Below are positions 28,427-50,223 of a stretch of 64,000 bases of DNA, one piece after another. This DNA comes from Ruminococcus sp. AM22-13 (lineage in GTDB: Bacteria; Bacillota; Clostridia; Lachnospirales; Lachnospiraceae), in contig NZ_QRIL01000011.1 of the NCBI RefSeq assembly GCF_003471165.1, forward strand, positions 50,049 through 114,048, written 5' to 3'. How positions within the stretch are numbered: the stretch's first letter is position 1; every line of letters begins with the position of its first letter. The notes below the pieces were generated by a model that made no database searches, was not told where the DNA came from, and worked only from the letters and a program-made list of their open reading frames with translations. A program made the position numbers and the translations under genes.

Positions 28427-28475
28427 GAAATGGTACACCTCCTTATAGATTTTGTATACCGCTGCAAATGAGTAA

Positions 28476-28505
28476 AGAAAAAGCCTTACTGCATGACAGT
28501 AAGGC
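28476..28505 (-). terminator. Attenuator hairpin in the rplJ leader
   Basis: Minus strand: GCCTTACTG, short loop, CAGTAAGGC, then TTTTTCTTT, 50 bases before rplJ. Placed right after the L10-binding structure, it suggests control by premature termination as in other Firmicutes. Confidence 0.8.
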
Positions 28506-28600
28506 GTGCGTAATCTTCCATAAACATAAAGAATACTTAGTCCTCGGTAGGCGTTTATAACTTATGCCTTACGGCACCTACTGTCTTCGGCAGCGTTCTG
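28506..28600 (-). ncRNA. L10 leader (autoregulatory 5' UTR of rplJL)
   Basis: The untranslated leader contains the characteristic segments CGCTGCCGAAGACAGTAGGT and CGCCTACCGAGGACTAAG on the minus strand, which form the L10(L12)4-binding kink-turn structure of class Firmicutes L10 leaders. Excess L10-L12 complex binds it and lowers expression. Confidence 0.85.
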
Positions 28601-28604
28601 GCAT

Positions 28605-28633
28605 AGAATAGCACATTGACTTTATATTGTCAA
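28605..28633 (-). promoter_or_regulatory. Sigma-A promoter of rplJL
   Basis: Minus strand: TTGACA, 17-base spacer, TATTCT, immediately upstream of the L10 leader and just after the upp stop codon. Confidence 0.85.
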
Positions 28634-37269: not shown

Positions 37270-38910
37270 TCAGATATAGTTTCCATCCTGTGCATTCTGT
37301 ACTGCAAATGCAGATTTCTTCTTTACGAAGTCTACTGCGTCTTTCACCGTAAGTCCATCCAGCTGCCAGTTTGTATAGAATCCATCCAGTCCTTTAAGTG
37401 TCTCGTCTTTTGCTGTGTTTTCATCAAGGACAAGAAGTACGATCAGTCCGGCTGCTTTGAGGTGGCGGACGGTTTCTGCATAGTTTTCACTTGCTGCCGG
37501 GTGATACAGATAGGTATGTCTTCCAAGTACAGTCAGCCCTTTTTCTACCTGCTCTGCAAATTCAAGTGTGATTCCTTCTTTGCCGATTGGGAATTCTACG
37601 ACAACCGGGGTCTGACCCTTAAGTCCGGCACGAACCTGCTCGTCTACTTTACCAATCTGGGATTTATCCTGGGAAACGAGAGTTTTTCTCACAACACCGC
37701 AGGCAGATGTCATGTTTGTGACACGGTCGATCAGAATCAGTTCTCCAAGTGTTCTGTGCTTGTCAAATTCGTCTACCACGATCTTCTCTGAGAACTCCAG
37801 AGTACAGGAGGCAATCTCATTTTTATTTAAAGTATAGGCGTTTTTCTTTTCGCCTGTGTTTACGTCTACGGAATAATTAATCTTTGTAACCAGACCTGGA
37901 ATCATCTTTGTGCCAATCTTTACAAAGAAATTCTTGCCGTCTGTCAGGGCATTGTCGTCCATCCAGAGGATATCTGCTTCCACAGAGTCTGTCAGGACTG
38001 CACCGGAATCGATTGTGAGCACGCATCCTCGGGAAACGTCCACTTCTCTGTCAAGCTGGATGGTGACAGGCTGTCCCTGTACTGCTTCTTCGGCTTCTTT
38101 GTTTCCAACCAGAATGCTCTTTACATGAGCTTCTTCCTTGCTCGGAAGTGTAGTTACAAGGTCACCGACTTTAATAGAGCCATTCTCGATCTGTCCCTGA
38201 AATCCGCGGAATTCATGGTTTGGCCGGCAGACTCTCTGTACCGGCATGTAGAAACCTTTTTCTGTGTCTTCCTTGATATCTACGGTTTCCAGATGTCTAA
38301 GGAGTGCTTCGCCTTCATACCATGGCATATTGTCAGATTTTGTTGTGACATTGTCACCCTCTGTGGCAGATACCGGAATAATGGTTACATTGGCAAGTTT
38401 TAATTCCTCTACCAGTGCTGCGATCTGATTCTCGATCTCGTGGAAACGCTTCTCATCATAACCGATAAGATCCATTTTGTTTACTGCGAATACAAAGTAA
38501 CGGATTCCCATCAGTGCGCAGATTCTTGCATGGCGTCTTGTCTGAACCAGAACGCCCTGGGAAGCATCCACAAGGATAACTGCCAGATCTGCAAAAGAAG
38601 CACCAACTGCCATGTTTCTGGTATATTCTTCATGTCCCGGTGTGTCCGCAACGATGAAGCTTCTGTTATCTGTTGTAAAATATCTGTATGCAACGTCGAT
38701 TGTGATACCCTGCTCACGTTCTGCCATCAGGCCATCCAGAAGAAGTGAATAATCAATGGCGCCGCCTCTGCTTCCTACCTTGGAATCCAGCTCCAGAGCT
38801 TTTTCCTGGTCTGCATAGAGAAGCTTTGCATCATAAAGAATATGTCCGATCAGAGTGGATTTTCCATCATCCACACTTCCGCATGTAATAAATTTCAATA
38901 ATCCTTTCAT
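37270..38910 (-). CDS. cysN: Sulfate adenylyltransferase subunit 1 with degenerate APS-kinase-like tail
   Basis: 546 residues. The GTPase subunit of ATP sulfurylase, which with CysD makes APS from sulfate and ATP. P-loop GSVDDGKST (11-19), DTPGHEEYT, NKMD and the EF-Tu-like beta-barrels are intact. From about residue 432 a 115-residue tail resembles APS kinase (LGRHTYLYHP, HLKAAGLIVLLVLDE), but its P-loop position reads FPIGKEGIT instead of GLSGSGKST, so no kinase activity is expected. This fits a pathway that reduces APS directly. It starts one base after the cysD stop. Confidence 0.93.
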   Translation of the reverse strand: MKGLLKFITCGSVDDGKSTLIGHILYDAKLLYADQEKALELDSKVGSRGGAIDYSLLLDGLMAEREQGITIDVAYRYFTTDNRSFIVADTPGHEEYTRNMAVGASFADLAVILVDASQGVLVQTRRHARICALMGIRYFVFAVNKMDLIGYDEKRFHEIENQIAALVEELKLANVTIIPVSATEGDNVTTKSDNMPWYEGEALLRHLETVDIKEDTEKGFYMPVQRVCRPNHEFRGFQGQIENGSIKVGDLVTTLPSKEEAHVKSILVGNKEAEEAVQGQPVTIQLDREVDVSRGCVLTIDSGAVLTDSVEADILWMDDNALTDGKNFFVKIGTKMIPGLVTKINYSVDVNTGEKKNAYTLNKNEIASCTLEFSEKIVVDEFDKHRTLGELILIDRVTNMTSACGVVRKTLVSQDKSQIGKVDEQVRAGLKGQTPVVVEFPIGKEGITLEFAEQVEKGLTVLGRHTYLYHPAASENYAETVRHLKAAGLIVLLVLDENTAKDETLKGLDGFYTNWQLDGLTVKDAVDFVKKKSAFAVQNAQDGNYI

Positions 38911-38911
38911 C

Positions 38912-39811
38912 CTAGAAATACCCCTCTCTCTTTCTTCTCTCCATGCTGCCTGCTGCCTCGTGGTCGATCACACGGCTGGTACGTTCAGAGGAAACAGCAC
39001 TTAATGTCTCATCAATAATCTCGTCCAGTGTATCTGCCTCAGATTCGATACCACCTGTCAGCGGATAACATCCAAGAGTACGGAATCTGACTTTTTTGTG
39101 CTCGATCTTTTCACCTGGGCGAAGTTTTAATCTGTCATCATCTACCATGATAATGTTTCCATCTCTGTAGATGACCGGTCTTTCTTTTGCAAAATATAAT
39201 GGTACGATTTCGATATTTTCACGCTGAATATATTGCCAGATATCCTTCTCTGTCCAGTTGGAAATCGGGAATACTCGCATGCTTTCACCTTTCTGGATCT
39301 TGGTGTTGTAGAGTTTCCACATTTCCGGTCTCTGGTTCTTCGGATCCCATGCCTGAGCAGAATTACGGAAAGAGAAAATTCTTTCTTTCGCTCTGGATTT
39401 TTCTTCATCACGACGGCCACCGCCAAATGCTGCTGTGAAACCATATTTTGTCAGGGCCTGTTTTAATGCCTGTGTTTTCATGACATCTGTGTATGCAGAA
39501 CCATGATCGAACGGGTTGATTCCTGCTTTCACACCTTCTTCATTGGTGTATACCAGCATATCGATTCCGTTTTCTTTTGCGACTCTGTCACGAAATTCGA
39601 TCATTTCGCGGAATTTCCATGTTGTATCAATGTGCAGGAACGGGAAAGGTGGTTTCTCCGGGTAAAATGCTTTCAGCGCCAGATGGAGCATAACGGAGCT
39701 GTCCTTTCCTATAGAATAAAGCATAACCGGCTTTTCACACTCGGCTGCTACTTCTCGCATAATATAAATTGCTTCTGCCTCAAGCTCATCAAGATGAGAT
39801 AAGTTACTCAT
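38912..39811 (-). CDS. cysD: Sulfate adenylyltransferase subunit 2
   Basis: 299 residues. PP-loop ATP pyrophosphatase-type subunit that forms the adenylyl-sulfate bond. The PP-loop reads SIGKDSSVM (33-41); other marks are [29 protein letters not shown] and the C-terminal [15 protein letters not shown] lies 8 bases before ATG 39811. It is followed one base later by cysN, as in most bacteria. Confidence 0.97.
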
Positions 39812-39909
39812 TGCATTATCCTCCTCTGTTTGTTAAATATATTTTGAAAAATCTGGCGGATATTTTTCTGCCATATTCTTGGAAAATTTTCTTTCAAAGT
39901 TAATACCTG

Positions 39910-40224
39910 TCAATATTTATTGGCATCCTTCTTATTAACCTGAATCGTAATCTTTGTACCGTCCGGCTTCTCCACTGTCCATGTGGAAATGTCCGGCTTT
40001 TCTGATACGACCATGCTTGCGCCTCTGCCGCCCACATCAGCTCCAAGGAAGAATCGGATGGCGTCGTGGCTGCATTCTTTGATACAGGAAGTACATCCCC
40101 AGCAGTCTCTTACCTGACGGATGAAGGCTTTTCCTTCTTTGTCCTTTTTAATCAAATTTCCGGGACAGGCTTCGATGCATTTGCCACATCCTACGCATTT
40201 GCTTTTCTGAATCCGAATGCTCAT
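39910..40224 (-). CDS. aprB: Adenylylsulfate reductase beta subunit (ferredoxin-like)
   Basis: 104 residues with two [4Fe-4S] motifs, CVGCGKCIEACP and CWGCTSCIKECS, as in AprB. It passes electrons to the flavin of AprA. It is shorter than the roughly 150-residue AprB of dissimilatory sulfate reducers, lacking most of the C-terminal arm. Its ATG overlaps the aprA stop by four bases (ATGA), so the subunits are translationally coupled. Confidence 0.92.
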   Translation of the reverse strand: MSIRIQKSKCVGCGKCIEACPGNLIKKDKEGKAFIRQVRDCWGCTSCIKECSHDAIRFFLGADVGGRGASMVVSEKPDISTWTVEKPDGTKITIQVNKKDANKY

Positions 40225-42032
40225 CTTTCACCTGCTCCTTTCTCTGCTGTATTTGCTGTTTCCTGCTTACCAGCGTTCTCTTTTGTTACCAGATCTCTAT
40301 ATAAAATTTTGATCTCACCATTTTCCATACAGGAGTTTACATATTTCATCCAGTCTTCACTCTGATCCGGATAATCTGTATTCTCTCCGAAGCTGTGCCA
40401 TCTGGTTTCCTTTCTTGCTGCCAGATGTGCGATAACTGCGCGGCATATGATCAGTCGCTCACGAAGTTCATAGATCTGCATCAGCTCATAAGCATCTGTC
40501 GCTGCCAGTGTATCTACAACAGGAAGCAGTGCTGCGATCTTTTCATCTGCTTTCGCAAGGCTTGTCTCACTGTATCTGTAATCGGTTCCGATTCCGCCTG
40601 CATACTGATCCATGATCTTCTGCATTGCTTCTTCAAGCTGTTCTGCATTCATCAGGGAACGTGGAGCATTTAAGTGAGATTCATACTCTGCTTTCTTTGC
40701 TTCTGCTATTTCAGAAAGCTTTTTATCTTCTGCTATTTCTGTATCTTTGGTTATTTTTGTTACGGTTTTCTCTTCTGCCTGTCCAGATGCCTCTCTCTGG
40801 TTTTCAGGTGTCCCTTTGTCTCTGGTTTCGGCATCTTTATTACCCAGATATTCCAGAATCGCTTCTGCGGCGATCTCACCCTCTGCCAGTGCACCGGTTA
40901 CATATTTCTGCGGGCATCCGCCTGCAACATCTCCGGCTGCATATAATCCCTCGATTGTTGTGGCTCTGTTATTGTCTACCCAGTAACCGCTGGCTGTATG
41001 TCCGCCTACGATATATGGCTCTGTACCTTCAATCTCTACATTTTCTTCCGAAGGACCCTTGCCGGCTTCCATCCATTTCAAGGTCTGAGATGGTGCCATA
41101 TTCAGGTATGCTTTGTAGAGATCCTGTTCCTGTTCTTTGGAAATTCCTTCTGTTCTGAGATAGCAAGGACCATTTCCTTCCCGGTTCTCCATGACCGTAC
41201 CATAAACACGCTGAGAAGTTGTCAGGCCGTATTTTGTCTCATAAATATCGCCATGTGCATTAACCTGTCTGGCTCCTACGCCCTGCGCGATAGTTCCTGT
41301 CGGAGCGATCGTATCTTTACATCTCAATGCGATGAAACGCATCTCGAAAGTTGTCATCTCTGCGCCGGAAAGTAATCCCATTGCATATCCTGCACCTGTG
41401 TTAAATGGCGGATACCACATCTTATGTCTGGAAAATCCCGGATTGTTCGGTCTGTAAAGTCCTGCCGCACCGCCTGTCGCACAAAGGACTGCTTCTGCGT
41501 CGATATCATAGAAAATATCTTCATTTACGCTAAATCCCACTGCACCTGTGATCTTTCCGTTTTCTTTTTTGTAGTCTGTAATGTTTACGTGGTTTAAAAC
41601 TGTGACATTTTCCTGCTCAGCTGCCGCTTTTGCCAGGATTGGCTTCATGTTCTCGCCGTTGATCTTGATGTTTCGATTTCCTCTGGCAACGTATTTGCCA
41701 TTTTCATCTTTCAGGATGACCAGACCCAGATCTTCCATCACTTTTGTCACGTGATTCAGTCTCTCCGACATGCTCAGAAGAAGATCTTCTCTGACGATTC
41801 CATGGGCATCCTTTTTGGCATAATCCACGTAATCCTGTGGAACTCTGCCTTCTGTGATGTATGCGTTTAAGGCGTTGACACCTGCTGCCAGGCATCCGCT
41901 TCTTTTAATATTTGCTTTCTCTGCGATCAGAACTTTTCTTTCGCTTTTCTGACCGATAACATATGCTGCAAAACAGCCTGCTGTTCCACCGCCGATGATC
42001 AGTACGTCGGTCTTGATTCTCTCTGTTCTCAT
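40221..42032 (-). CDS. aprA: Adenylylsulfate reductase alpha subunit (FAD)
   Basis: 603 residues. An FAD-binding protein of the fumarate reductase fold: VLIIGGGTAGC at 10-20, ATGGAAGLYRPNN, and YAAGDVAGG near 364. AprA features include GCLAAGVNALNAY and PTGTIAQGVGARQ. It reduces APS to sulfite and AMP. Unusual is a highly charged Lys/Glu/Thr-rich stretch at residues 398-448 between the FAD domain and the helical C-terminal domain. Gene context (sulfate transport, CysDN, sulfite reductase) indicates an assimilatory role. No DsrAB/QmoABC genes are present. Confidence 0.93.
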   Translation of the reverse strand: MRTERIKTDVLIIGGGTAGCFAAYVIGQKSERKVLIAEKANIKRSGCLAAGVNALNAYITEGRVPQDYVDYAKKDAHGIVREDLLLSMSERLNHVTKVMEDLGLVILKDENGKYVARGNRNIKINGENMKPILAKAAAEQENVTVLNHVNITDYKKENGKITGAVGFSVNEDIFYDIDAEAVLCATGGAAGLYRPNNPGFSRHKMWYPPFNTGAGYAMGLLSGAEMTTFEMRFIALRCKDTIAPTGTIAQGVGARQVNAHGDIYETKYGLTTSQRVYGTVMENREGNGPCYLRTEGISKEQEQDLYKAYLNMAPSQTLKWMEAGKGPSEENVEIEGTEPYIVGGHTASGYWVDNNRATTIEGLYAAGDVAGGCPQKYVTGALAEGEIAAEAILEYLGNKDAETRDKGTPENQREASGQAEEKTVTKITKDTEIAEDKKLSEIAEAKKAEYESHLNAPRSLMNAEQLEEAMQKIMDQYAGGIGTDYRYSETSLAKADEKIAALLPVVDTLAATDAYELMQIYELRERLIICRAVIAHLAARKETRWHSFGENTDYPDQSEDWMKYVNSCMENGEIKILYRDLVTKENAGKQETANTAEKGAGER

Positions 42033-42053
42033 ACCCTTTCCTCCAGAAGTGTG

Positions 42054-43112
42054 TTAGATAATTACCGAATCATCTCTTACAGCTTCATTCTCAATCAGCT
42101 GTACCGTATCGCCTCTCAGTGCAAAAATCCTGTACAGGAACACATTAACGATTTCCCCTTCCCTGACATCTGCTTTCTCAAGGCTTCTTCTTGCTGTTAC
42201 CACCGAATTGTTCACTCTGATCTGAAGTTCCAAATTATCTCCCCGGAAGGAAACCCGTTCAACCACTCCCTGAGATACGGAAGATCTGAACTTTTCTACT
42301 TCATCCAGTCTGGAAACTTTTACGAATTCCGGACGGACAATAATCTTGTCTGCACCCTCCGCCTGAGTAAATGTGTGGAAATCATCTGCATTTTTCAATA
42401 TAGATGGCTGTCCGAAGAAAGATGCGGTAAAAGCTGTCTCCGGGTTTCGGTAAACTTCTACCGGAGTGCCTTTCTGCTCAAGCCGTCCTGCATTGGTAAT
42501 GATGATCTCATCCGCTACCTCGATTGCTTCATCCTGATCATGTGTAACGAAAATACTGGTAATTCCCAGCTTCTCGATCATTTCTTTCAACCAGCTTCTC
42601 AGCTCCTGACGAATCTTTGCATCAATCGCTGCAAACGGCTCATCCAGAAGCAGCACCTGTGGATTCGGTGCAAGGGCTCTGGCAAATGCTACCCTCTGTC
42701 TCTGTCCACCAGACAGCTGACTCGGATACCTTTTCTCCAGTCCTTCCAGACCTACCAGCTTTACCAGCTCTCTGACCCGGGTGTCTATTGTTTTTTTATC
42801 TACTTTCTGAACTTTCAGACCAAATGCTACGTTATCATAAACAGTCATATAACGGAACAGCGCATAATTCTGAAATACAAATCCGATTCCTCGCTCACTG
42901 GCCGGCACATCGTTGACTACTTTTCCATCGATAATGATCTCGCCGCTGTCCGGAGTTTCCAGACCTGCGATCATTCGAAGAATGGTTGTTTTTCCACTTC
43001 CACTCGGTCCCAGCAGGCCGATCAGCCTGCCTTTTTCGATTCCGAAATTTACATTCTTTGATGCCTGGTAGGAACCATAGGTCTTATTTATATTTTTTAA
43101 CTCTACATACAT
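42054..43112 (-). CDS. cysA: Sulfate/thiosulfate ABC transporter ATPase
   Basis: 352 residues. Walker A GPSGSGKTT (35-43), signature LSGGQRQRVAFARAL, Walker B LLLDEPFAAID and a C-terminal TOBE-like domain. It powers the CysT/CysW channel. It starts one base after the cysW stop codon, and aprA follows 21 bases later. Confidence 0.95.
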   Translation of the reverse strand: MYVELKNINKTYGSYQASKNVNFGIEKGRLIGLLGPSGSGKTTILRMIAGLETPDSGEIIIDGKVVNDVPASERGIGFVFQNYALFRYMTVYDNVAFGLKVQKVDKKTIDTRVRELVKLVGLEGLEKRYPSQLSGGQRQRVAFARALAPNPQVLLLDEPFAAIDAKIRQELRSWLKEMIEKLGITSIFVTHDQDEAIEVADEIIITNAGRLEQKGTPVEVYRNPETAFTASFFGQPSILKNADDFHTFTQAEGADKIIVRPEFVKVSRLDEVEKFRSSVSQGVVERVSFRGDNLELQIRVNNSVVTARRSLEKADVREGEIVNVFLYRIFALRGDTVQLIENEAVRDDSVII

Positions 43113-43113
43113 A

Positions 43114-43938
43114 TCAGGCTTCCTTCTTTCCTTTGTATTCGATCACGCTTTTGACCACCAGAATGATAACTGCCATGATCACCAGCAATGAAGATACGGC
43201 AAACGCCGGAACATACTGAAACTCGTTAAATAAAATCTCGACATGGAGAGGAAGGGTATTGGTCTTTCCTCTTAAATGCCCGGAAAGGACGGATACTGCG
43301 CCGAACTCTCCCATGGCTCTTGCCGTACAGAGCACAACTCCATAAAGCAACGCCCATTTAATATGAGGAAAAGTAATCTTCCAGAAGATCGTCCAGCCGT
43401 TCGCTCCCATCAGTGCTGCGGCTTCTTCCTCGTCTGTTCCTTCTGTTTCCAGAACCGGAATCAGTTCTCTGGAAATAAAAGGAAATGTTACAAATACAGT
43501 TGCAATGATGATTCCCGGTACAGAGAATACAACTTTAATTCCGAATTTAATAAGTAAAAAGTAGACAGGACTCTGACGTCCGAAAATCAGAAGAAAAATC
43601 AGACCTGCGATGACCGGTGAAATCGTAACCGGAAGATCAATCAATGTGGTCAGCAGTTTTTTGCCCTTGAACTGAAACTTAGTCAGTGCCCAGGCTGCGA
43701 AGATACCAAAAATGGTATTAAAGATGACTGCGATCAGTGTTGCTTTGACCGTAAGGAGAAGTGCTTTAATTGTGTACTCATCCGTTACCGCCTCAAGGTA
43801 AACTTTCCAGCCGCTTCGCAGAGCCTCTGTGATCACAGTGATCAGCGGGAGGAGAAGCATTACTGCCAGAAACAGGACGCTGATACCGATCAGCAGCCAT
43901 TTTGTGATTTTCTCTGAAGTCTTTACATTGTTGTCCAT
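43114..43938 (-). CDS. cysW: Sulfate ABC transporter permease CysW
   Basis: 274 residues, six membrane segments and the EAA-type loop EEAAALMGANGWTIFW. Its start overlaps the cysT stop by one base (TGATG). Forms the sulfate channel with CysT. Confidence 0.94.
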   Translation of the reverse strand: MDNNVKTSEKITKWLLIGISVLFLAVMLLLPLITVITEALRSGWKVYLEAVTDEYTIKALLLTVKATLIAVIFNTIFGIFAAWALTKFQFKGKKLLTTLIDLPVTISPVIAGLIFLLIFGRQSPVYFLLIKFGIKVVFSVPGIIIATVFVTFPFISRELIPVLETEGTDEEEAAALMGANGWTIFWKITFPHIKWALLYGVVLCTARAMGEFGAVSVLSGHLRGKTNTLPLHVEILFNEFQYVPAFAVSSLLVIMAVIILVVKSVIEYKGKKEA

Positions 43939-44774
43939 CAGGCATTTCCTCCCCTTAAGATTCTCGCGTTTCTCTGCTGGATCACATTATTGAGAAACAG
44001 AATGAAAAATGAAACCGCCAGCATCACCAGTGCGATCGCCGTTGCGCTGGAATAATCAAATTCCTGAAGTTCTGACATAATGATCAGCGGTGTGATTTCT
44101 GTGTAATATGGCTTATTTCCTGCGATAAATACGATGCTTCCATATTCACCAAGGCATCTGCCAAAAGCAAGTCCGGTTCCTGCAAAAATCGCCGGTTTCA
44201 GTTCCGGAAAAATGACTTTCCAGAAAATCATTGATTTCTTTGCTCCCAGCACTCCAGCTGCTTCGCTGTAGAAATTGTCCATCTTCTCCAGAACCGGCTG
44301 TACGCTTCGTACAACAAACGGAATTCCTACGAAGATCATGGCTACTGTAATACCGATCCTTGTGTATGCGATCTTAATACCGAATCTGGCAAAAAAGCTT
44401 CCGACGAGTCCGGAATCGGAAGTTAAGGATGTCAGCGCGATACCTGCAACTGCGGTTGGCAGTGCGAACGGAAGCTCAATCATTCCATCCATGATCCGCT
44501 TGCCCGGAAATTCATACTTTACAAGTACCCATGCAAGGATAGTTCCCATAATTCCATTGATCACTGCTGCTGCAAAAGCGGATATGAAGCTTGTGTAAAA
44601 GGAAGCCAATACTCTGGCTCTTGTAATGGTTTCAATGAAATCTTTAAAGCTCATCTGTGCTGTGTAGATCACCAGACTGGCAAGTGGGATCAGAACCACC
44701 AGACTTAGTATGGAAATGGTAATTCCCATGGAGAGTCCGAATCCTGGAATCACTGGTTTATTTCTTTTTTTCAT
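43938..44774 (-). CDS. cysT: Sulfate ABC transporter permease CysT
   Basis: 278 residues from ATG 44774 (MKKRNKPVIPG), with AGGTGG 9 bases upstream; a TTG two codons earlier is less well placed. Six membrane segments; loop YSEAAGVLGAKKSMIFWKV. The family partner CysW follows with coupled translation. Confidence 0.94.
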   Translation of the reverse strand: MKKRNKPVIPGFGLSMGITISILSLVVLIPLASLVIYTAQMSFKDFIETITRARVLASFYTSFISAFAAAVINGIMGTILAWVLVKYEFPGKRIMDGMIELPFALPTAVAGIALTSLTSDSGLVGSFFARFGIKIAYTRIGITVAMIFVGIPFVVRSVQPVLEKMDNFYSEAAGVLGAKKSMIFWKVIFPELKPAIFAGTGLAFGRCLGEYGSIVFIAGNKPYYTEITPLIIMSELQEFDYSSATAIALVMLAVSFFILFLNNVIQQRNARILRGGNA

Positions 44775-44936
44775 AATCAATTACCACCTCTCTGTCTCGT
44801 ATGTCCTGCTGTCATTATCCTCGTCAATCTTTCATTTCATGCTTGTAAGTAAATGCACCAATTTCTTTTAACATTTTGCGGTTTATTCTGATTTGATTCC
44901 CATCTGAAAGCTGCTCTCAATCTACATATAGATGTT

Positions 44937-45935
44937 TTATCTCTCATAGATCTCATCAAAGATTCCGCCATCTGTGAAGTGCTTTTTCTGTACTTCATCC
45001 CATCCGCCGTAGTCGCTGATGTTTACCAGATCTACGCTCAGGTCAAACACATCATTGTGTTCTTTCAGGATCTTTTCATTGGTCGGACGGAAGTAGTTCT
45101 CTGCTTCAATCTCCTGCGCTTCGTCGGAATACAGATATTTTAAATACTCAGTTGCCACATCTCTCGTTCCTCTGTAATCCACTACTTCATCTACCACTGC
45201 TACAGACGGCTGTGCCAGAATACTCACACTCGGAGTAACGATCTCGTACTCATCCGGATAGTCACGCATGGAAAGATATGCTTCATTTTCCCATGCCACC
45301 AGCACATCGCCCTGTCCGTTCTCTACGAAAGAAGTGGTTGCCCCTCTTGCGCCGGAATCAAGAACTACTACATTCAGATAAAGCTTCCTGATAAAATCCT
45401 TCATCCGGGTTTCATCTCCGTCATACTTCTTATCTGCGTAAGCCCATGCTGCCATGTAGTTCCATCTCGCACCTCCGGATGTCTTAGGGTTCGGAGTTAC
45501 CACACCCACACCATCCTTTATCAGGTCATCCCAGTCTTTGATGCCTTTGGGATTTCCCTTCTTTACCAGAAATACGATGGTCGAAGTATACGGAGAACTT
45601 TCATTGTCAAACTTATCCTGCCAGCCTGTCTCAATCAGTCCTGCGTTTTCAATGGATTCTATATCGTATTCCAGTGCCAGTGTTACTACATCTGCATCCA
45701 GACCATTGGCTACTTCCAATGCCTGTTTCCCGGAACCGCCATGGGACTGTGTCACTTCTACATCTTCCCCGGTTTTCTCCTTCCAGTGTTCTTCAAATAT
45801 TTTGTTGTACTGTTCAAACATTTCTCTGGTAGGGTCATAGGAAACATTGGTGATTGACACTGTTTTTCCAAAAGCCTGTACCGGTGTCAGTGCCAGTACA
45901 GCTGCCAGGCCAAATGCAAATAATTTTCTGATCAT
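44937..45935 (-). CDS. sbp: Sulfate-binding protein
   Basis: 332 residues. Signal peptide (about 1-23, VQAFGKT), mature protein with YDPTREMF, QSHGGSGKQA, NPKTSGGARWNY and GARGATTSF, the sulfate-contact segments of the Sbp/CysP family. As with the two sugar-binding proteins in this window there is no lipobox cysteine. It precedes cysT by 162 bases, which hold no obvious hairpin. Confidence 0.94.
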   Translation of the reverse strand: MIRKLFAFGLAAVLALTPVQAFGKTVSITNVSYDPTREMFEQYNKIFEEHWKEKTGEDVEVTQSHGGSGKQALEVANGLDADVVTLALEYDIESIENAGLIETGWQDKFDNESSPYTSTIVFLVKKGNPKGIKDWDDLIKDGVGVVTPNPKTSGGARWNYMAAWAYADKKYDGDETRMKDFIRKLYLNVVVLDSGARGATTSFVENGQGDVLVAWENEAYLSMRDYPDEYEIVTPSVSILAQPSVAVVDEVVDYRGTRDVATEYLKYLYSDEAQEIEAENYFRPTNEKILKEHNDVFDLSVDLVNISDYGGWDEVQKKHFTDGGIFDEIYER

Positions 45936-45956
45936 TTATTTCTCTCCTGCTTTGCT

Positions 45957-46367
45957 TTACAGTAATACAAGTTCTTCCTTCTCAGATTCCGTTCCTTCTA
46001 TATGGAAAGAATTCAGAACAGGATTCTCATTGTCCATCAGAGAAAGAATCATATAGCTTGCTGTGCTGTCATAAGCCAGTCGTTTATCTTCTTCTGAAGG
46101 TCTGGACGGGCTTTCCGGATGGGAATGCCAGTTTCCAAGAGGTACCAGACCATTCGCACGCATATCTTTTACTGCTGCAAGCTGTTCTTTCGGATCCAGC
46201 GAAAAGTGCTCATTGGAATGATCGATGTTTGTCAGGCAGTAAACCTTTTTGATAGATTTATCATTTCCATCCTTAGTTCCTGCGATCAATCCGCAGGCTT
46301 CTTCCGGAAGATTTTCTCTGGCGTGTTTTAAAATTATTTCGTAGTCATTCTTTGACATTGTGATCAT
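45957..46367 (-). CDS. JAMM/MPN-domain metalloprotease (sulfur-carrier processing)
   Basis: 136 residues. A complete JAMM motif: E22/E23 in LPEEACG, H81-S-H83, S91 and D94 (HSHPESPSRPSEED). Members of this M67 group remove C-terminal residues or amino acids from ubiquitin-like sulfur carriers (Mec+ of mycobacteria, HcyD of Wolinella). Here the carrier encoded two genes upstream ends GGGR, so removal of the final Arg to expose Gly-Gly is the obvious inferred role. GGAG lies 11 bases before the ATG. Confidence 0.88.
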   Translation of the reverse strand: MITMSKNDYEIILKHARENLPEEACGLIAGTKDGNDKSIKKVYCLTNIDHSNEHFSLDPKEQLAAVKDMRANGLVPLGNWHSHPESPSRPSEEDKRLAYDSTASYMILSLMDNENPVLNSFHIEGTESEKEELVLL

Positions 46368-46392
46368 GATTTTTCTTGCTCCTTTATCTCCA

Positions 46393-46468
46393 GCCGATAT
46401 TTACGATCCGCTTTCGCTGCTTACTTATTGCTCTTTGTAGCCGAAGCAGAAGGCTTATCTGAATCGAC
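46393..46468. repeat. Degenerate copy of repeat family 2
   Basis: CCGATATTTACGATCCGCTT and GCTTACTTATTGCTCTTTGT, then CCGAAGCAG..GGCTTATCTGAATCG, follow the same order as in the full copies at 49113 and 49382, with the middle missing. It fills the gap between the ThiF-like and JAMM genes inside the operon. Confidence 0.6.
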
Positions 46469-46477
46469 CAAAGCGAA

Positions 46478-47284
46478 TCAGATTCCGTCACATTCTGCCT
46501 GTTCATAGTCGATCAGCTCTGTGATTGTCGGATGCTCACCGCATACCGGGCAGTTCTTTACGTGTTTCGGAAGTTTGATCTTACGGAATTCCATTGTAAG
46601 TGCATCATATGTAAGAAGATATCCTGTAAGAAGATCGCCAACTCCCAGAAGATATTTGATTGCTTCCATCGCCTGAAGGCTTCCGATAACGCCTCCCATC
46701 GCTCCGATAACGCCGGCCTGTTTACAGGTAGGTACGGCATCCTTTGGCGGCGGATCTTTGAATATACATCTGTAACATGGCCCTTCTCCCGGAACATATG
46801 TCATCAGCTGTCCCTGGAAACGAAGGATTCCTGCGTGAGAAAATGGTTTCTTTGCCATAACGCAGGCATCATTGATCAGGAATTTTGCCGGAAAATTGTC
46901 GGTTCCATCAATGATAAAGTCATAATCTTTGATCAGATCCATGATTGTCTCGGAATCTACGAAAGTCTGGTAAGTTTTAACTGTCACATCCGGGTTGATG
47001 GCTTCCATGGATTCTTTTGCGGAAAGTACCTTTGGTTTGCCGATGTCTTTTGTTGCGTGGATGACCTGACGCTGAAGATTGGAAAGGTCTACCTCATCTG
47101 CATCTGCAATTCCAATCGTTCCCACACCTGCTGCCGCAAGGTAAAGAGCTGCCGGTGCTCCAAGTCCGCCTGCTCCGATGATCAGAACACTGGAATTGAG
47201 CAGTTTTTTCTGTCCTTTTGCTCCAACCTCTTTCAGAATGATATGTCTGGAATATCGTTCGAGCTGATCATTTGTAAATGCCAC
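46478..47284 (-). CDS. ThiF/MoeB-family E1-like adenylyltransferase
   Basis: 268 residues. ATP-binding GAGGLGAPAA (37-46), DADEVDLSNLQRQ, DGTDNFPAKF, a zinc site made of CYRC and C-terminal CPVC, and a conserved PTCKQAGVIGA segment. It activates the C-terminal Gly of a ubiquitin-like sulfur carrier as acyl-adenylate. The start is GTG, overlapping the carrier gene's TAG stop by one base; its Shine-Dalgarno GGGAGGTGG is also the codons for the carrier's Gly-Gly-Gly tail. Assigned to the carrier next door rather than to thiamine or molybdopterin synthesis because of the sulfur operon. Confidence 0.93.
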   Translation of the reverse strand: MAFTNDQLERYSRHIILKEVGAKGQKKLLNSSVLIIGAGGLGAPAALYLAAAGVGTIGIADADEVDLSNLQRQVIHATKDIGKPKVLSAKESMEAINPDVTVKTYQTFVDSETIMDLIKDYDFIIDGTDNFPAKFLINDACVMAKKPFSHAGILRFQGQLMTYVPGEGPCYRCIFKDPPPKDAVPTCKQAGVIGAMGGVIGSLQAMEAIKYLLGVGDLLTGYLLTYDALTMEFRKIKLPKHVKNCPVCGEHPTITELIDYEQAECDGI

Positions 47285-47490
47285 TATCTTCCACCTCCCA
47301 TGAAGTACAGGAATTCAACGCTGTCGCCTTCTTTTAATGCGTAAGTTTCAAATTCTGCCTTGTCGATAAAGTCATCGTTTACAGATACTGTTACATACTG
47401 AGGAGTCTCTACATCTTCCTGTACGATCAGTTCTGCCACTGTGATTGCGTCTTTTACTTCTTTTTTATCTCCTGCTACTGTGATAACCAT
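47284..47490 (-). CDS. ThiS-like sulfur carrier protein ending GGGR
   Basis: 68 residues, beta-grasp fold by family: MVITVAGDKKEV ... TVSVNDDFIDKAEF ... LKEGDSVEFLYFMGGGR. Classical ThiS/MoaD end exactly at Gly-Gly; here Arg68 follows Gly67, so the tail must be trimmed before adenylation. With the E1-like and JAMM genes downstream it forms a sulfide-carrier module. Placement between sulfite reductase and sulfate uptake points to capture of newly reduced sulfide for cysteine, homocysteine or cofactor synthesis. Confidence 0.88.
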   Translation of the reverse strand: MVITVAGDKKEVKDAITVAELIVQEDVETPQYVTVSVNDDFIDKAEFETYALKEGDSVEFLYFMGGGR

Positions 47491-47534
47491 AATCTCTGTT
47501 CTCCATTTCTGTATGTTTTTATATGTGTAATTTT

Positions 47535-47852
47535 TTAAAGATTTTTATCAATGATTTCTTCCAGATCTGCCGCTTTCTTTGCTCCGGTCAGCTTCTCGAT
47601 CTGTTCTCCGTCTTTCAGGAAAATCAGTGTCGGCGCCGACATAACTTTGTATTCTTCTACAAGTTCCTGCTCGTAAGCTACATTTACTTTTCCTATATAA
47701 ATCTGATCACCGTATTTCTCTTCCAGCTTTGCAAATACCGGAACCATTCTCTTACATGGTACGCAGCTATCGGAATAGAAATCAATCAGTGTAAGTTTTC
47801 CTGGCTGGAAAGCTTTCTCTTTAAAAGTCTCTCCGTTTAATCTCTCTGCCAT
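47535..47852 (-). CDS. Thioredoxin-family protein with CVPC active site
   Basis: 105 residues, single thioredoxin domain. The active site is C30-V-P-C33 (context FYSDSCVPCKRM) rather than the usual CGPC, which shifts redox potential in related proteins; cis-Pro is in MSAPTLIFL. No signal peptide. In this operon it may supply electrons to APS or sulfite reduction, or reduce persulfide on the TusA-like protein. AGGAG lies 9 bases upstream. Confidence 0.92.
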   Translation of the reverse strand: MAERLNGETFKEKAFQPGKLTLIDFYSDSCVPCKRMVPVFAKLEEKYGDQIYIGKVNVAYEQELVEEYKVMSAPTLIFLKDGEQIEKLTGAKKAADLEEIIDKNL

Positions 47853-47943
47853 GATAGTTCACTCCTGTCAGTTCCTGTCTTTTTTATTCAGCCTCTTATT
47901 CTCAGTCTCTTGTCTTTTTTATCCGGCTTCCCGCTTTCACGGA

Positions 47944-48189
47944 TCAGTCTCCTGCTTTCTTCACATAAAGTGTGTAGGTTCCATCTTCATTATCATCAAG
48001 TTTCAGGATCTGATGTCCTTCCTCTTTGATACTTCGTGGTACATTCTGTACCGGCTCTCCGTCATTCATGCGGATGGATAAGATCTGGCCTTCATCCAGT
48101 TCCTCCAGTGCTACCTTTGCTTTTACAAAAGTTACCGGGCAGACAACATCGGTAATATCTACAGTATCATCAAATTTAATCTCACTCAT
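47944..48189 (-). CDS. TusA/SirA-family sulfurtransferase-like protein
   Basis: 81 residues from ATG 48189 (MSEIKFDD), 9 bases after GGAGG; ATG 48195 is too close. The start overlaps the sulfite reductase gene by eight bases. The TusA signature is present as VDITDVVCPVTFVKAK, with C17 as the likely persulfide carrier; the second Pro of CPxP is replaced by Thr. Such proteins hand sulfane sulfur between enzymes. A role downstream of the sulfite reductase is inferred from coupling. Confidence 0.88.
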   Translation of the reverse strand: MSEIKFDDTVDITDVVCPVTFVKAKVALEELDEGQILSIRMNDGEPVQNVPRSIKEEGHQILKLDDNEDGTYTLYVKKAGD

Positions 48190-49042
48190 TTTCATATGCC
48201 TCCAGGATTTCTTTATTGAATTCGTCCTCGCCTACGCGGTCAATCGTAAATTTCAGTCTCTCACCGGCTTTCGCATTCTTCTCGAAGAATCTGATTGCTG
48301 CATCACACACCTTGAGAAGTTTTTCGTGATCTTCGATAAATGGAATCACTGTTTTTCCTTTATTAATGTGATTTCCGAAGATTCCTCCGAAAGAAACGAT
48401 ATATCCGTGAGTGTTGTCATAAGCGTCTGTCGGACAGGCTTTTGTACATCTTCCACAGAAGTTACATTTGGAAGAATCTACTGTGATCTTTCCATCTTCT
48501 AATGTGATGGCACTTTCACGACAAGCTTTCACGCAGACACCACACTGGATACATTTATCTTCCTGCCATGCTACTTTGATACCACCTTTGATTCCTACAT
48601 CGTTCTCCTCTGCTTTTAAGCAGTTGTTCTGGCATCCGGTAACACCAAATTTAAATTTGTGAGGAAGCTCACGTCCGAAGTATCTCTCATCCAGTTCCTG
48701 TGCCAATGCGTAAGTATCGATACATCCGCTTGGACAGATGGCTACACCCTGACAGGCTGTGATGGTACGAACTCTCGGTCCGCACACACCCGGAACTACA
48801 TCTCCCTCTTCCAGTGCCGCCTTCACTTCATCAATCTGGCTTAATTTGATGAATGGGATCTCCACACCCTGGCGGGAAGTAAGATGTACGTAGCCCTCAC
48901 CATATTTCTCTGAAACCTCAGCTACTTTCGCAAGCTGTTTCGCATCCAGATGTCCGCCAACTACACGGATTCTTAATGAAAAATTATCTTTCTGTTTCTG
49001 GCGCATGAATCCGCCTTTTTTTAATGTTGCATAATCTGCCAT
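48182..49042 (-). CDS. Small siroheme sulfite reductase with ferredoxin domain
   Basis: 286 residues. Siroheme/[4Fe-4S] cysteines C97, C103, C137 and C141 fit C-x5-C / C-x3-C (ACQGVAICPSGC, TGCQNNC). Two further [4Fe-4S] motifs lie at C164-C174 and C193-C203. The HLTSRQGVEIPF segment is typical of the sulfite/nitrite reductase fold. About half the size of CysI and without a flavoprotein partner, it resembles single-fold small (assimilatory type, AsrC/Fsr-like) enzymes and is probably ferredoxin dependent. First gene of the sulfate operon; CAGGAGGG precedes the ATG. Confidence 0.9.
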   Translation of the reverse strand: MADYATLKKGGFMRQKQKDNFSLRIRVVGGHLDAKQLAKVAEVSEKYGEGYVHLTSRQGVEIPFIKLSQIDEVKAALEEGDVVPGVCGPRVRTITACQGVAICPSGCIDTYALAQELDERYFGRELPHKFKFGVTGCQNNCLKAEENDVGIKGGIKVAWQEDKCIQCGVCVKACRESAITLEDGKITVDSSKCNFCGRCTKACPTDAYDNTHGYIVSFGGIFGNHINKGKTVIPFIEDHEKLLKVCDAAIRFFEKNAKAGERLKFTIDRVGEDEFNKEILEAYENE

Positions 49043-49112: not shown

Positions 49113-49278
49113 AGTCAATCGGATATTCGCAATCCGCTTTCGCTACGTGGCTCTACACCGAATAACTGCTCCGCAGTTTATCAGGAGGGGCTTGTACCCT
49201 TCCTGATACAAGCAAGTCCCACCCACTGCTTATTGCTCCTCGCAATTGAAGCAGGGAACTTACTTGATTTGGTTAACT
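49113..49278. repeat. Repeat family 2, full copy 1 (in the sulfate operon leader)
   Basis: 166 bases starting AGTCAATCGGATATTCGCAA and ending TTGATTTGGTTAACT. Ends are imperfect inverted repeats (AGTCAATCGGAT versus AGTTAACCGAAT). Inside lies a 12-bp stem TATCAGGAGGGG / CCCTTCCTGATA with one wobble. It is over 90% alike to copy 2 by eye. Confidence 0.85.
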
Positions 49279-49325: not shown

Positions 49326-49354
49326 ATATTACACGAAATGACATTATTTGTCAA
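49326..49354 (-). promoter_or_regulatory. Sigma-A promoter of the sulfate assimilation operon
   Basis: Minus strand: TTGACA, 17-base spacer, TAATAT. Just downstream is CATAG..CTATG (49299-49325), an interrupted inverted repeat around the expected start point that could bind a repressor (for example an Rrf2-type sulfur regulator); this is inference. Confidence 0.8.
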
Positions 49355-49381: not shown

Positions 49382-49548
49382 AGTCAATCGGATATTCTCA
49401 ATCCGCTTTCGCTACGTGGCTCTACACCGAATAACTGCTCCGCAGTTTATCAGGAGGGGCTTGTACCCCTCCTGATACAAGCAAGTCCCCACCCACTGCT
49501 TATTGCTCTTCGCAACCCCCGTAGGGGACTTACTTGATTCGGTTAACT
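49382..49548. repeat. Repeat family 2, full copy 2
   Basis: 167 bases in direct orientation to copy 1, separated from it by about 100 bases that carry the operon promoter. The internal stem TATCAGGAGGGG / CCCCTCCTGATA is perfect here. A variable part near the right end (AACCCCCGTAGGGGACT) differs from copy 1. Confidence 0.85.
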
Positions 49549-49658: not shown

Positions 49659-49973
49659 CTACCCCAGTTTATTCCCATAATCCTCTAACTGGTGAAATAT
49701 CCCCAATATATTCACAATATTTTCTTCTATACCAAAGATTATCACATAATCCATTTGAGGAATTAATGCCTCTCTATAGTTCTTACTTGCCAGATAACTG
49801 TCCCTGCTGATTGCAAATTGCTGTGGATTTGTTTCCATCCGTTCATATACATTCTCAACTCCATTCAGCAAATGTTTCGCGGCCTGCTCATTTTTTAGTT
49901 TATAAAGCAGATAATAAATCAGGTTATCCAACAATTCCTCTGCATGTTCAGTAATTACAAGCCTATATTCCAT
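49659..49973 (-). CDS. RelE/ParE-family toxin
   Basis: 104 residues: YRLVITEHAEELLDNLIYYL, an alpha-helical hairpin, then NYREALIPQMDYVIIFGIEE and a C-terminal ILGIFHQLEDY. Family members cleave mRNA on the ribosome (RelE) or poison gyrase (ParE). Its start overlaps the antitoxin gene by 11 bases, the usual toxin-antitoxin layout. The helical N-terminal part favours the ParE-like branch but the target cannot be decided by eye. Confidence 0.88.
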   Translation of the reverse strand: MEYRLVITEHAEELLDNLIYYLLYKLKNEQAAKHLLNGVENVYERMETNPQQFAISRDSYLASKNYREALIPQMDYVIIFGIEENIVNILGIFHQLEDYGNKLG

Positions 49974-50223
49974 ACTTTGCCCTCATCCCCTGTAATGCAG
50001 ATTTCGCTTCCTTTACTTTTCCTTCTTCAATCTCTTTTTCTGAGACTTCAATATCCTTATATTTTAGATATTTGCGCATATTTTTCTCATAAGTTTCCAT
50101 ACTCATAATAACCATATCACCGTATCCATTCTTTGTAATATAGATAGGTTCTTCAGAATTATGACACATATCTGAAATCTCTGCTGTCTTTTTTAAATCT
50201 CTGATAGGTATGATCTGCGGCAT
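49963..50223 (-). CDS. Phd/YefM-family antitoxin
   Basis: 86 residues. Phd-like fold: IPIRDLKKTAEISDMCHNSE, EPIYITKNGYGDMVIMSMETY, then a charged C-terminal helix that would wrap the toxin. AAGGAGG precedes the ATG. Such proteins bind their own promoter; no clear operator palindrome was seen in the short upstream region. Confidence 0.88.
   Translation of the reverse strand: MPQIIPIRDLKKTAEISDMCHNSEEPIYITKNGYGDMVIMSMETYEKNMRKYLKYKDIEVSEKEIEEGKVKEAKSALQGMRAKYGI

Follow-up and report, generated by a model that had tools for sequence, protein, structure and literature searches.

The 64-kb window analysed here (64,000 nucleotides of contig NZ_QRIL01000011.1 of Ruminococcus sp. AM22-13) contains a minus-strand operon of 14 genes at positions 37270-49042. 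The operon joins sulfate uptake, ATP sulfurylase (CysDN), an AprAB-type reductase and a small siroheme sulfite reductase (SIR) to a TusA-like protein, a thioredoxin, a ThiS-like sulfur carrier, an E1-like enzyme and a JAMM protease. Where does the sulfur loaded on the carrier finally go? The initial annotation proposed a complete assimilatory route from sulfate to a carrier-bound thiocarboxylate and left the final acceptor open. Once the relatives of the locus are read, their sequences indicate that the acceptor is a specialised homocysteine synthase travelling with the carrier. We give a probability of roughly 0.7 to the reading that the operon is assimilatory and that the protein thiocarboxylate it makes from sulfate serves the synthesis of homocysteine (methionine).

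The probable sulfur acceptor in relatives

Relatives were collected by searching one genome of each species with a SIR profile; at least 576 were confirmed, and the best 80 loci were used. By title these came mostly from gut and rumen Clostridia, plus some Fibrobacter. The main counts refer to the 62 of these 80 loci that had 3 kb on either side of SIR; a locus is called carrier-less when no carrier lies inside the stretch examined. A genome survey covered 200 Lachnospiraceae genomes with 200 genus labels (thresholds: AprA E ≤ 1e-100, JAMM E ≤ 1e-30, SIR E ≤ 1e-80, MetY-c1 E ≤ 1e-120).

Clustering of the open reading frames (ORFs) of 99 loci yielded an unnamed family with a median length of 413 aa in 68 of them, here called MetY-c1. 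It is an O-acetylhomoserine sulfhydrylase-like, pyridoxal phosphate-dependent enzyme (PF01053; 380 bits against TIGR01326, under the cut-off of 495). MetY-c1 and the carrier occurred together in 46 of the 62 loci, MetY-c1 only in two, the carrier only in one (L039, Blautia) and neither in 13 (Fisher p = 1.7e-10); the ORF-cluster version of this table read 45/1/2/14. MetY-c1 adjoined the cluster in 46/47 carrier-bearing loci versus 2/15 carrier-less loci, so that the acceptor need no longer be regarded as open. One of the two loci with MetY-c1 only (L110) starts inside an E1 gene, with JAMM after it, and its carrier therefore probably lies just off the stretch. In the genome survey, MetY-c1 and JAMM were found together in 14 genomes versus 1.5 expected, and the fifteenth MetY-c1 genome (G030) had ThiS and E1 beside MetY-c1. 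Because 5 of these 15 genomes have no AprA, MetY-c1 follows the carrier rather than the sulfate genes.

Queries from the MetY-c1 and CysK clusters found neither a homocysteine nor a cysteine synthase in the window, in line with the initial statement that the operon lacks both. Among named relatives, Blautia wexlerae (locus L039) is the nearest, and all 14 genes recur there in unchanged order at 85–98% identity. Besides B. wexlerae, 14 of the 20 JAMM-bearing Lachnospiraceae had MetY-c1. The B. wexlerae gene lies away from the 14-gene cluster, at G201:C108:107441-108673, and in the tree it fell within the clade linked to the clusters (99/97; inner node 100/99). We infer that the genome of the window also holds MetY-c1.

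Solved sulfhydrylases and the genomic paralogs fell outside the MetY-c1 clade (100/98). This clade and the Wolinella MetY (3ri6) both lack a loop of seven residues, PDPSYHG in 8sf5, as well as a single residue next to an SKE-like motif. None of the loop positions was kept in 35/35 clade rows of the alignment (at most 33 distinct) or in 3ri6. All 7 positions were kept in four other solved sulfhydrylases or relatives and in three genomic paralogs, and 6 in two Fibrobacter canonical copies.

As a separate observation, the canonical MetY paralog was almost identical in G001 (L121) and B. wexlerae (G201, L122), with branch lengths of 0.0075 and 0. The SIR of G001 is only 66% identical to that of the window, and the SIR of B. 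wexlerae 95%. The shared paralog may reflect transfer or contamination.

The operon and its proteins

All 14 ORFs were present in the ORF list, and Pfam and NCBIfam families back the products initially assigned to them. The features of the operon are as follows.

49326-49354, minus strand: putative promoter TTGACA-17-TAATAT, from a pattern scan
48182-49042, minus strand: minimal siroheme sulfite reductase (SIR), 286 aa, with NIR_SIR and two [4Fe-4S] ferredoxin motifs
47944-48195, minus strand: TusA-like sulfurtransferase, CPVTFVK (family match)
47535-47852, minus strand: thioredoxin-like protein, CVPC (family match)
47284-47490, minus strand: ThiS-like sulfur carrier precursor, ending EFLYFMGGG-R (family match and sequence)
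46478-47284, minus strand: E1/ThiF-MoeB-like adenylyltransferase without rhodanese (family match)
45957-46367, minus strand: JAMM/Prok-JAB metalloprotease, E23, H81, H83, S91, D94 (family match and alignment)
44937-45935, minus strand: sulfate-binding protein Sbp (NF008022, 460 bits)
43938-44780, minus strand: CysT permease, BPD type (family match)
43114-43938, minus strand: CysW permease, BPD type (family match)
42054-43112, minus strand: CysA ATPase of the ATP-binding cassette (ABC) type (family match)
40221-42032, minus strand: AprA/MtPAPSR-type flavin adenine dinucleotide (FAD) reductase, alpha subunit, for adenosine phosphosulfate (APS) or phosphoadenosine phosphosulfate (PAPS), substrate loop N119-R120-N121
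39910-40224, minus strand: AprB-type ferredoxin subunit, 8 cluster Cys and Trp42 (family match; motif read from sequence)
38912-39811, minus strand: CysD, ATP sulfurylase small subunit (NF009214, 521 bits)
37270-38910, minus strand: CysN, ATP sulfurylase large subunit (GTPase) with a C-terminal extension
37273-37698, minus strand: CysN C-terminal domain (residues 405-546), predicted APS-kinase fold without P-loop
37136-37177, minus strand: intrinsic terminator, folded hairpin before a T-run

Fifteen stretches held all 14 genes, each on one strand. The exact order recurred in 5 of them (L024 and L054, which are one contig fetched twice, L033, L039 of B. wexlerae, and L097; 4 distinct contigs), and 10 had other orders. 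The cluster is modular, and its uptake-AprAB-CysDN part and its SIR-TusA-thioredoxin-carrier-E1-JAMM part swap places. Genes often joined to it are hemA, hemC, hemB, hemL, cobA/hemD, cysG-N, thioredoxin reductase and an Rrf2 regulator. Such clusters were found in B. wexlerae, R. bromii, Anaerobutyricum hallii and Ruminococcus callidus, which are common in the gut.

ThiS and E1 occurred in 47 of the 62 loci, and all 47 also had JAMM and TusA, which supports the proposed one-operon route. Nor are carrier, E1 and JAMM missing from most relatives with the remaining genes, which would have spoken against the route: the carrier was present in 31 of the 45 AprA-bearing loci. Among the 200 genomes, AprA was found in 18, JAMM in 20, SIR in 18 and MetY-c1 in 15. 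JAMM accompanied SIR in 17/18 genomes and AprA in 11/18, and six genomes had SIR and JAMM without AprA. The carrier part thus goes with sulfite reduction and not with sulfate alone. Several loci (L028, from the same genome as L170, L165, L094, L096 and L103) had a second E1-like gene (43–52% identity) and a distant JAMM (24–34%). In several of them this second system adjoins SufS-like and serine acetyltransferase genes, and the L028 E1, as read from its sequence, begins with a ubiquitin-like part and finishes with a rhodanese-like one.

The carrier alignment comprised 97 rows, of which 95 were complete with a stop codon (70 distinct). The C-terminus ran past MGG by at least 2 residues in 95/95 complete rows, with MGGG plus 1–7 residues in 94 and MGGRR in one; the window carrier ends MGGGR. 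E1 enzymes adenylate a terminal Gly, so such a precursor must be trimmed. The JAMM, whose metal and catalytic residues were invariant in 8/8 aligned sequences, sits in the cluster and is the obvious candidate for trimming, behind GG or GGG. No complete tail-less carrier was found among the 95 rows for a contrast of tails with JAMM absence. TusA occurred in 47/47 carrier loci and 1/15 other loci. Since many carrier-less loci keep SIR, AprAB and CysDN without TusA, TusA probably takes part in loading the carrier and not in reducing sulfite. This role would suit the release of zero-valent sulfur that the abstract of PMC13188885 describes for assimilatory sulfite reductases other than this SIR.

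In the SIR, C97, C103, C137, C141 and eight ferredoxin Cys were invariant in 10/10 sequences. The C-terminal domain of CysN, on which the initial annotation was silent, is predicted to be a degenerate APS-kinase domain that keeps the fold without the P-loop. The motif GxxxxGK[S/T] is absent from this domain in the window, and a second P-loop was found in 0/59 complete CysN rows. In hhalign, window-type CysN tails matched APS kinase with E 7e-8, and the other tail type did no better than controls. The match of all tails pooled was weak (prob 35) because two unrelated types were mixed. In fungal ATP sulfurylase, a P-loop-less C-terminal domain senses PAPS. The other tail type (about 157 aa, e.g. 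L070:10924-11394) was present in 41/56 CysN rows. The two examples tested had no Pfam match, and AlphaFold2 gave a predicted local distance difference test score (pLDDT) of 87 with no PDB match; it is possibly a new fold.

The intergenic gaps range from -14 to +156 bp, and the 14 genes presumably form one transcript. The promoter initially placed at 49326-49354 rests on a pattern that is not enriched, with 19 such sites across the region against a mean of 21.7 in shuffles. It is probably real, because about 90 nt around it are nearly identical in B. wexlerae amid flanks that differ. In the window, but not in B. wexlerae, a repeat-bearing stretch lies between this promoter and the first gene. 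The proposed terminator held: the hairpin at 37177-37136 folds at -19.2 kcal/mol (z -4.1, 0/200 shuffles as stable) and is followed by a T-run. Its loop of 11 exceeds the loops of 3–8 taken by the terminator pattern scan, hence it was unlisted there. The Rfam scan of the window gave an L10 leader at 28468-28608 as sole match and no riboswitch or T-box at the operon. Riboswitch or T-box control was dropped, as the window and 14 relatives' loci together gave only this leader and one tRNA.

Two copies of a repeat of about 166 nt (49113-49278 and 49382-49548) flank the promoter. They are 98% identical over 108 nt and 85% over the remainder. The repeat is absent at the corresponding place in B. wexlerae, and an exact 29-mer of it was found in 0/182 loci; it is perhaps a small mobile element. 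A ParE/Phd-type toxin-antitoxin pair lies directly upstream of the operon at 49659-50223.

Proposed route and alternatives

From gene presence and order, co-occurrence, carrier tails, the MetY-c1 clade with its lost loop and the predicted domain fold, all of which are established, we infer every reaction step of the following route. Sbp-CysTWA would import sulfate, CysDN would make APS, the AprAB-type flavoenzyme would convert APS to sulfite, and the small siroheme enzyme would reduce the sulfite. JAMM would trim the carrier precursor behind Gly-Gly, and E1 would adenylate the new C-terminus. Sulfur would reach the carrier as sulfide, or perhaps via TusA with thioredoxin as reductant, to give carrier-COSH. 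MetY-c1 would move this sulfur to O-acetylhomoserine, and JAMM would release homocysteine, as it reportedly does in Wolinella. We speculate, quite tentatively, that in many gut Firmicutes and Fibrobacter the methionine sulfur may stay wholly protein-bound, passing from SIR through TusA and the E1-activated carrier to a carrier-only MetY with little free sulfide. A bacterial FAD-type APS reductase of methanogen lineage might feed this path, and the dead APS-kinase domain of ATP sulfurylase might gate it by sensing APS.

Several observations weigh against homocysteine as the end point. Six of the 20 JAMM genomes lacked MetY-c1 at the threshold (G100, G148, G152, G177, G192 and G193). The loci of G148, G152 and G193 lie on contigs under 6 kb, and G177 has a MetY-like gene at 37%. 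G192 retains a MetY-c1 remnant (residues 227-358) at L161:7426-7824 beside SIR, with SIR, TusA, thioredoxin, carrier, E1 and JAMM present. G100, with JAMM, carrier and AprA, showed no MetY-c1 within 20 kb, and L118 has MetY-c1 but no carrier within 19 kb. The JAMM of L099 (76%) and an E1-like end in L092 (60%) lie at the extreme edges of their stretches, and some of the 13 loci with neither gene may have a carrier further away. Co-occurrence is also confounded by descent, as the 80 loci include near relatives. B. wexlerae carries CysK and a canonical MetY as well. The Wolinella MetY forms a long branch outside the MetY-c1 clade, its exact tree position being unsettled, and lyases may lack the PDPSYHG loop too. 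The Rfam scan of 14 relatives' loci gave no riboswitch tie to methionine, only one tRNA.

The carrier might instead serve cysteine synthesis of the CysO/Mec+ type, in which carrier-COSH would react with O-acetyl- or O-phosphoserine through a CysK/CysM homologue and JAMM would free cysteine. The CysK cluster occurs in 14 of the 99 clustered loci, B. wexlerae has a CysK, JAMM-E1 of G177 lies near CysK and a divergent MetY-like gene, and the R. bromii annotation names the JAMM 'CysO-cysteine peptidase' (PMC6378601, in part). We consider this rather unlikely, since MetY-c1, not CysK, adjoins the cluster in 46/47 carrier loci, and the one CysK tested is cysteine synthase A by NCBIfam, over the cut-off. 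A carrier for thiamine or molybdopterin synthesis only, which the initial annotation had considered, is hardly credible. The carrier does match TIGR01683 (thiS) over the cut-off, and in 5/16 genomes it was the sole ThiS-family match or close to it, with no separate ThiS seen; a single match occurred in 4/16 (G100, G104, G145 and G003). However, 12/16 genomes had at least 2 such matches, and neither thi nor moa genes are among the 14. In B. wexlerae a separate, tail-less ThiS, ending VGGG, lies beside ThiG- and ThiH-like ORFs (named by reading the ORFs).

The sulfate-reducing part raises two further alternatives. The window AprA appears, by sequence, nearer to the assimilatory archaeal PAPS reductase than to dissimilatory AprA: it scored 598 bits to MtPAPSR alpha (8a8o, Methanothermococcus thermolithotrophicus) versus 298 to Archaeoglobus AprA. 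It scored 916 bits against NF005331 (adenylyl-sulfate reductase subunit alpha; cut-off 557) and 330 against TIGR02061, under the cut-off of 642. The initial idea of AprAB in assimilation stands, with this correction of its lineage. PAPS rather than APS might then be the substrate, as for this nearest solved relative. According to the consulted part of PMC10322725, Lys120, Arg121 and Ser122 mark MtPAPSR as an enzyme for PAPS, whereas in AprA a clash with PAPS would arise from Gln145. These three positions read N-R-N in the window and in 53/66 rows, and X-R-N overall; all three were kept in 0/66, with K in 1/66, S in 0/66 and the third Asn in 66/66. As the Gln145 equivalent is also replaced, by Asn in 66/66, the pocket alone would not decide between the substrates. 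Among 19 AprA genomes, including G021, which is only 67% complete, a full-length APS kinase match was found in 3, a weak partial one (20–25 bits) in 3, and none in 13, B. wexlerae among them. Because 16/19 lack a full-length match, APS is the likely substrate, and PAPS an unlikely one. Dissimilatory reduction with sulfate as electron sink would also employ AprAB and a siroheme enzyme, and the authors of PMC6378601, in the part consulted, favour it for R. bromii. We find it very improbable, since the cluster closes with a sulfur carrier and a homocysteine synthase and the reductase is nearer to an assimilatory archaeal PAPS reductase. The single-gene SIR of 286 aa is also nearer to F420-dependent sulfite reductase, whose C-terminal half is its nearest solved relative (159 bits versus 82 to the best dissimilatory subunit). 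The marks of the dissimilatory route are DsrAB/DsrC, Qmo and Sat; none was noticed, although no search was aimed at them.

Comparison with known systems

If the sulfur stays on the carrier and ends in homocysteine, the dissimilatory reading of the R. bromii L2-63 cluster needs changing. The consulted passage of PMC6378601, on a transcriptome, lists 20 co-regulated genes (01134-01158), among them those for sulfate transport, siroheme, thioredoxin, sulfur carrier, moeZ, 'mec', TrxB, ifcA, ferredoxin and cysDN; each fell by 1.4–3.3 log2 in Blautia hydrogenotrophica co-culture. From hemA on, they agree with L048 (R. bromii ATCC 27255) in gene content and order; loci 01147-01149, whose L048 counterparts are MetY-c1, SIR and TusA, are not in that passage. 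The gene content argues for assimilation. One survey, in its consulted part, counts aprAB in general among assimilatory and dissimilatory H2S genes, with Blautia unnamed; that count would need care for such gut species. The MetY-c1 clade with its missing loop would serve as a sequence marker of carrier-dependent homocysteine synthesis. As of November 2017, neither MetaCyc nor KEGG contained the protein thiocarboxylate route, according to a passage of PMC5764234.

The operon type and the core idea have been known since 2006 as class 4e of Iyer, Burroughs & Aravind (2006; PMC1779556). The consulted part of that paper draws the inference that the ThiS-like protein finally receives the sulfur. Shared with class 4e are the ThiS/MoaD-like protein, JAB, E1 without rhodanese, SirA/TusA, sulfate ABC transporter, ATP sulfurylase and sulfite reductase. 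Class 4e lists PAPS reductase and adenylylsulfate kinase, whereas the window encodes a reductase of the AprAB type and a kinase domain that lacks the P-loop. It also lists O-acetylhomoserine sulfhydrylase, not all members being required; this gene lies outside the operon in Blautia and is present in 48/62 relatives' loci. The present analysis adds the acceptor clade, the precursor tails, the reductase lineage with the substrate it probably uses, the dead APS-kinase domain and the occurrence across gut species. Among the papers listed, in a search to which subscription literature was mostly out of reach, we recognised none that connects AprAB and the carrier with MetY in gut Clostridia.

The AprAB architecture in assimilation is shared with MtPAPSR, the nearest solved sequence (PMC10322725, in part); the differences are the 16/19 genomes without full-length APS kinase and the specificity residues not kept. 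Unlike dissimilatory AprAB, the enzyme is not closest to Archaeoglobus or Desulfovibrio AprA and lacks the Gln145 equivalent. The mycobacterial CysO/Mec+/CysM system combines carrier, E1 and JAMM chemistry, as does the operon. It differs in its CysM-type partner, for which a query from the CysK cluster of 14 loci gave no match in the window; a homocysteine synthase takes its place in relatives.

The closest parallel is Wolinella succinogenes, for which Krishnamoorthy & Begley (2011) reportedly described a HcyS/HcyF/HcyD/MetY homocysteine route with an extra C-terminal residue on the carrier, a JAMM, an E1 and a carrier-using MetY. Its sulfate-to-sulfide genes are said to lie near the hcy genes, and MetY is said to pass the carrier sulfur to O-acetylhomoserine before JAMM frees homocysteine. 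A passage of PMC6271081 likewise derives Wolinella methionine sulfur from a protein thiocarboxylate. The present system differs in having TusA and thioredoxin in the cluster (with TrxB in many relatives), another MetY lineage and reductases other than those reported for Wolinella. Both systems share the JAMM, the E1, a MetY without the PDPSYHG loop (on the present side, that of relatives) and, reportedly on the Wolinella side, a carrier precursor that extends past Gly-Gly.

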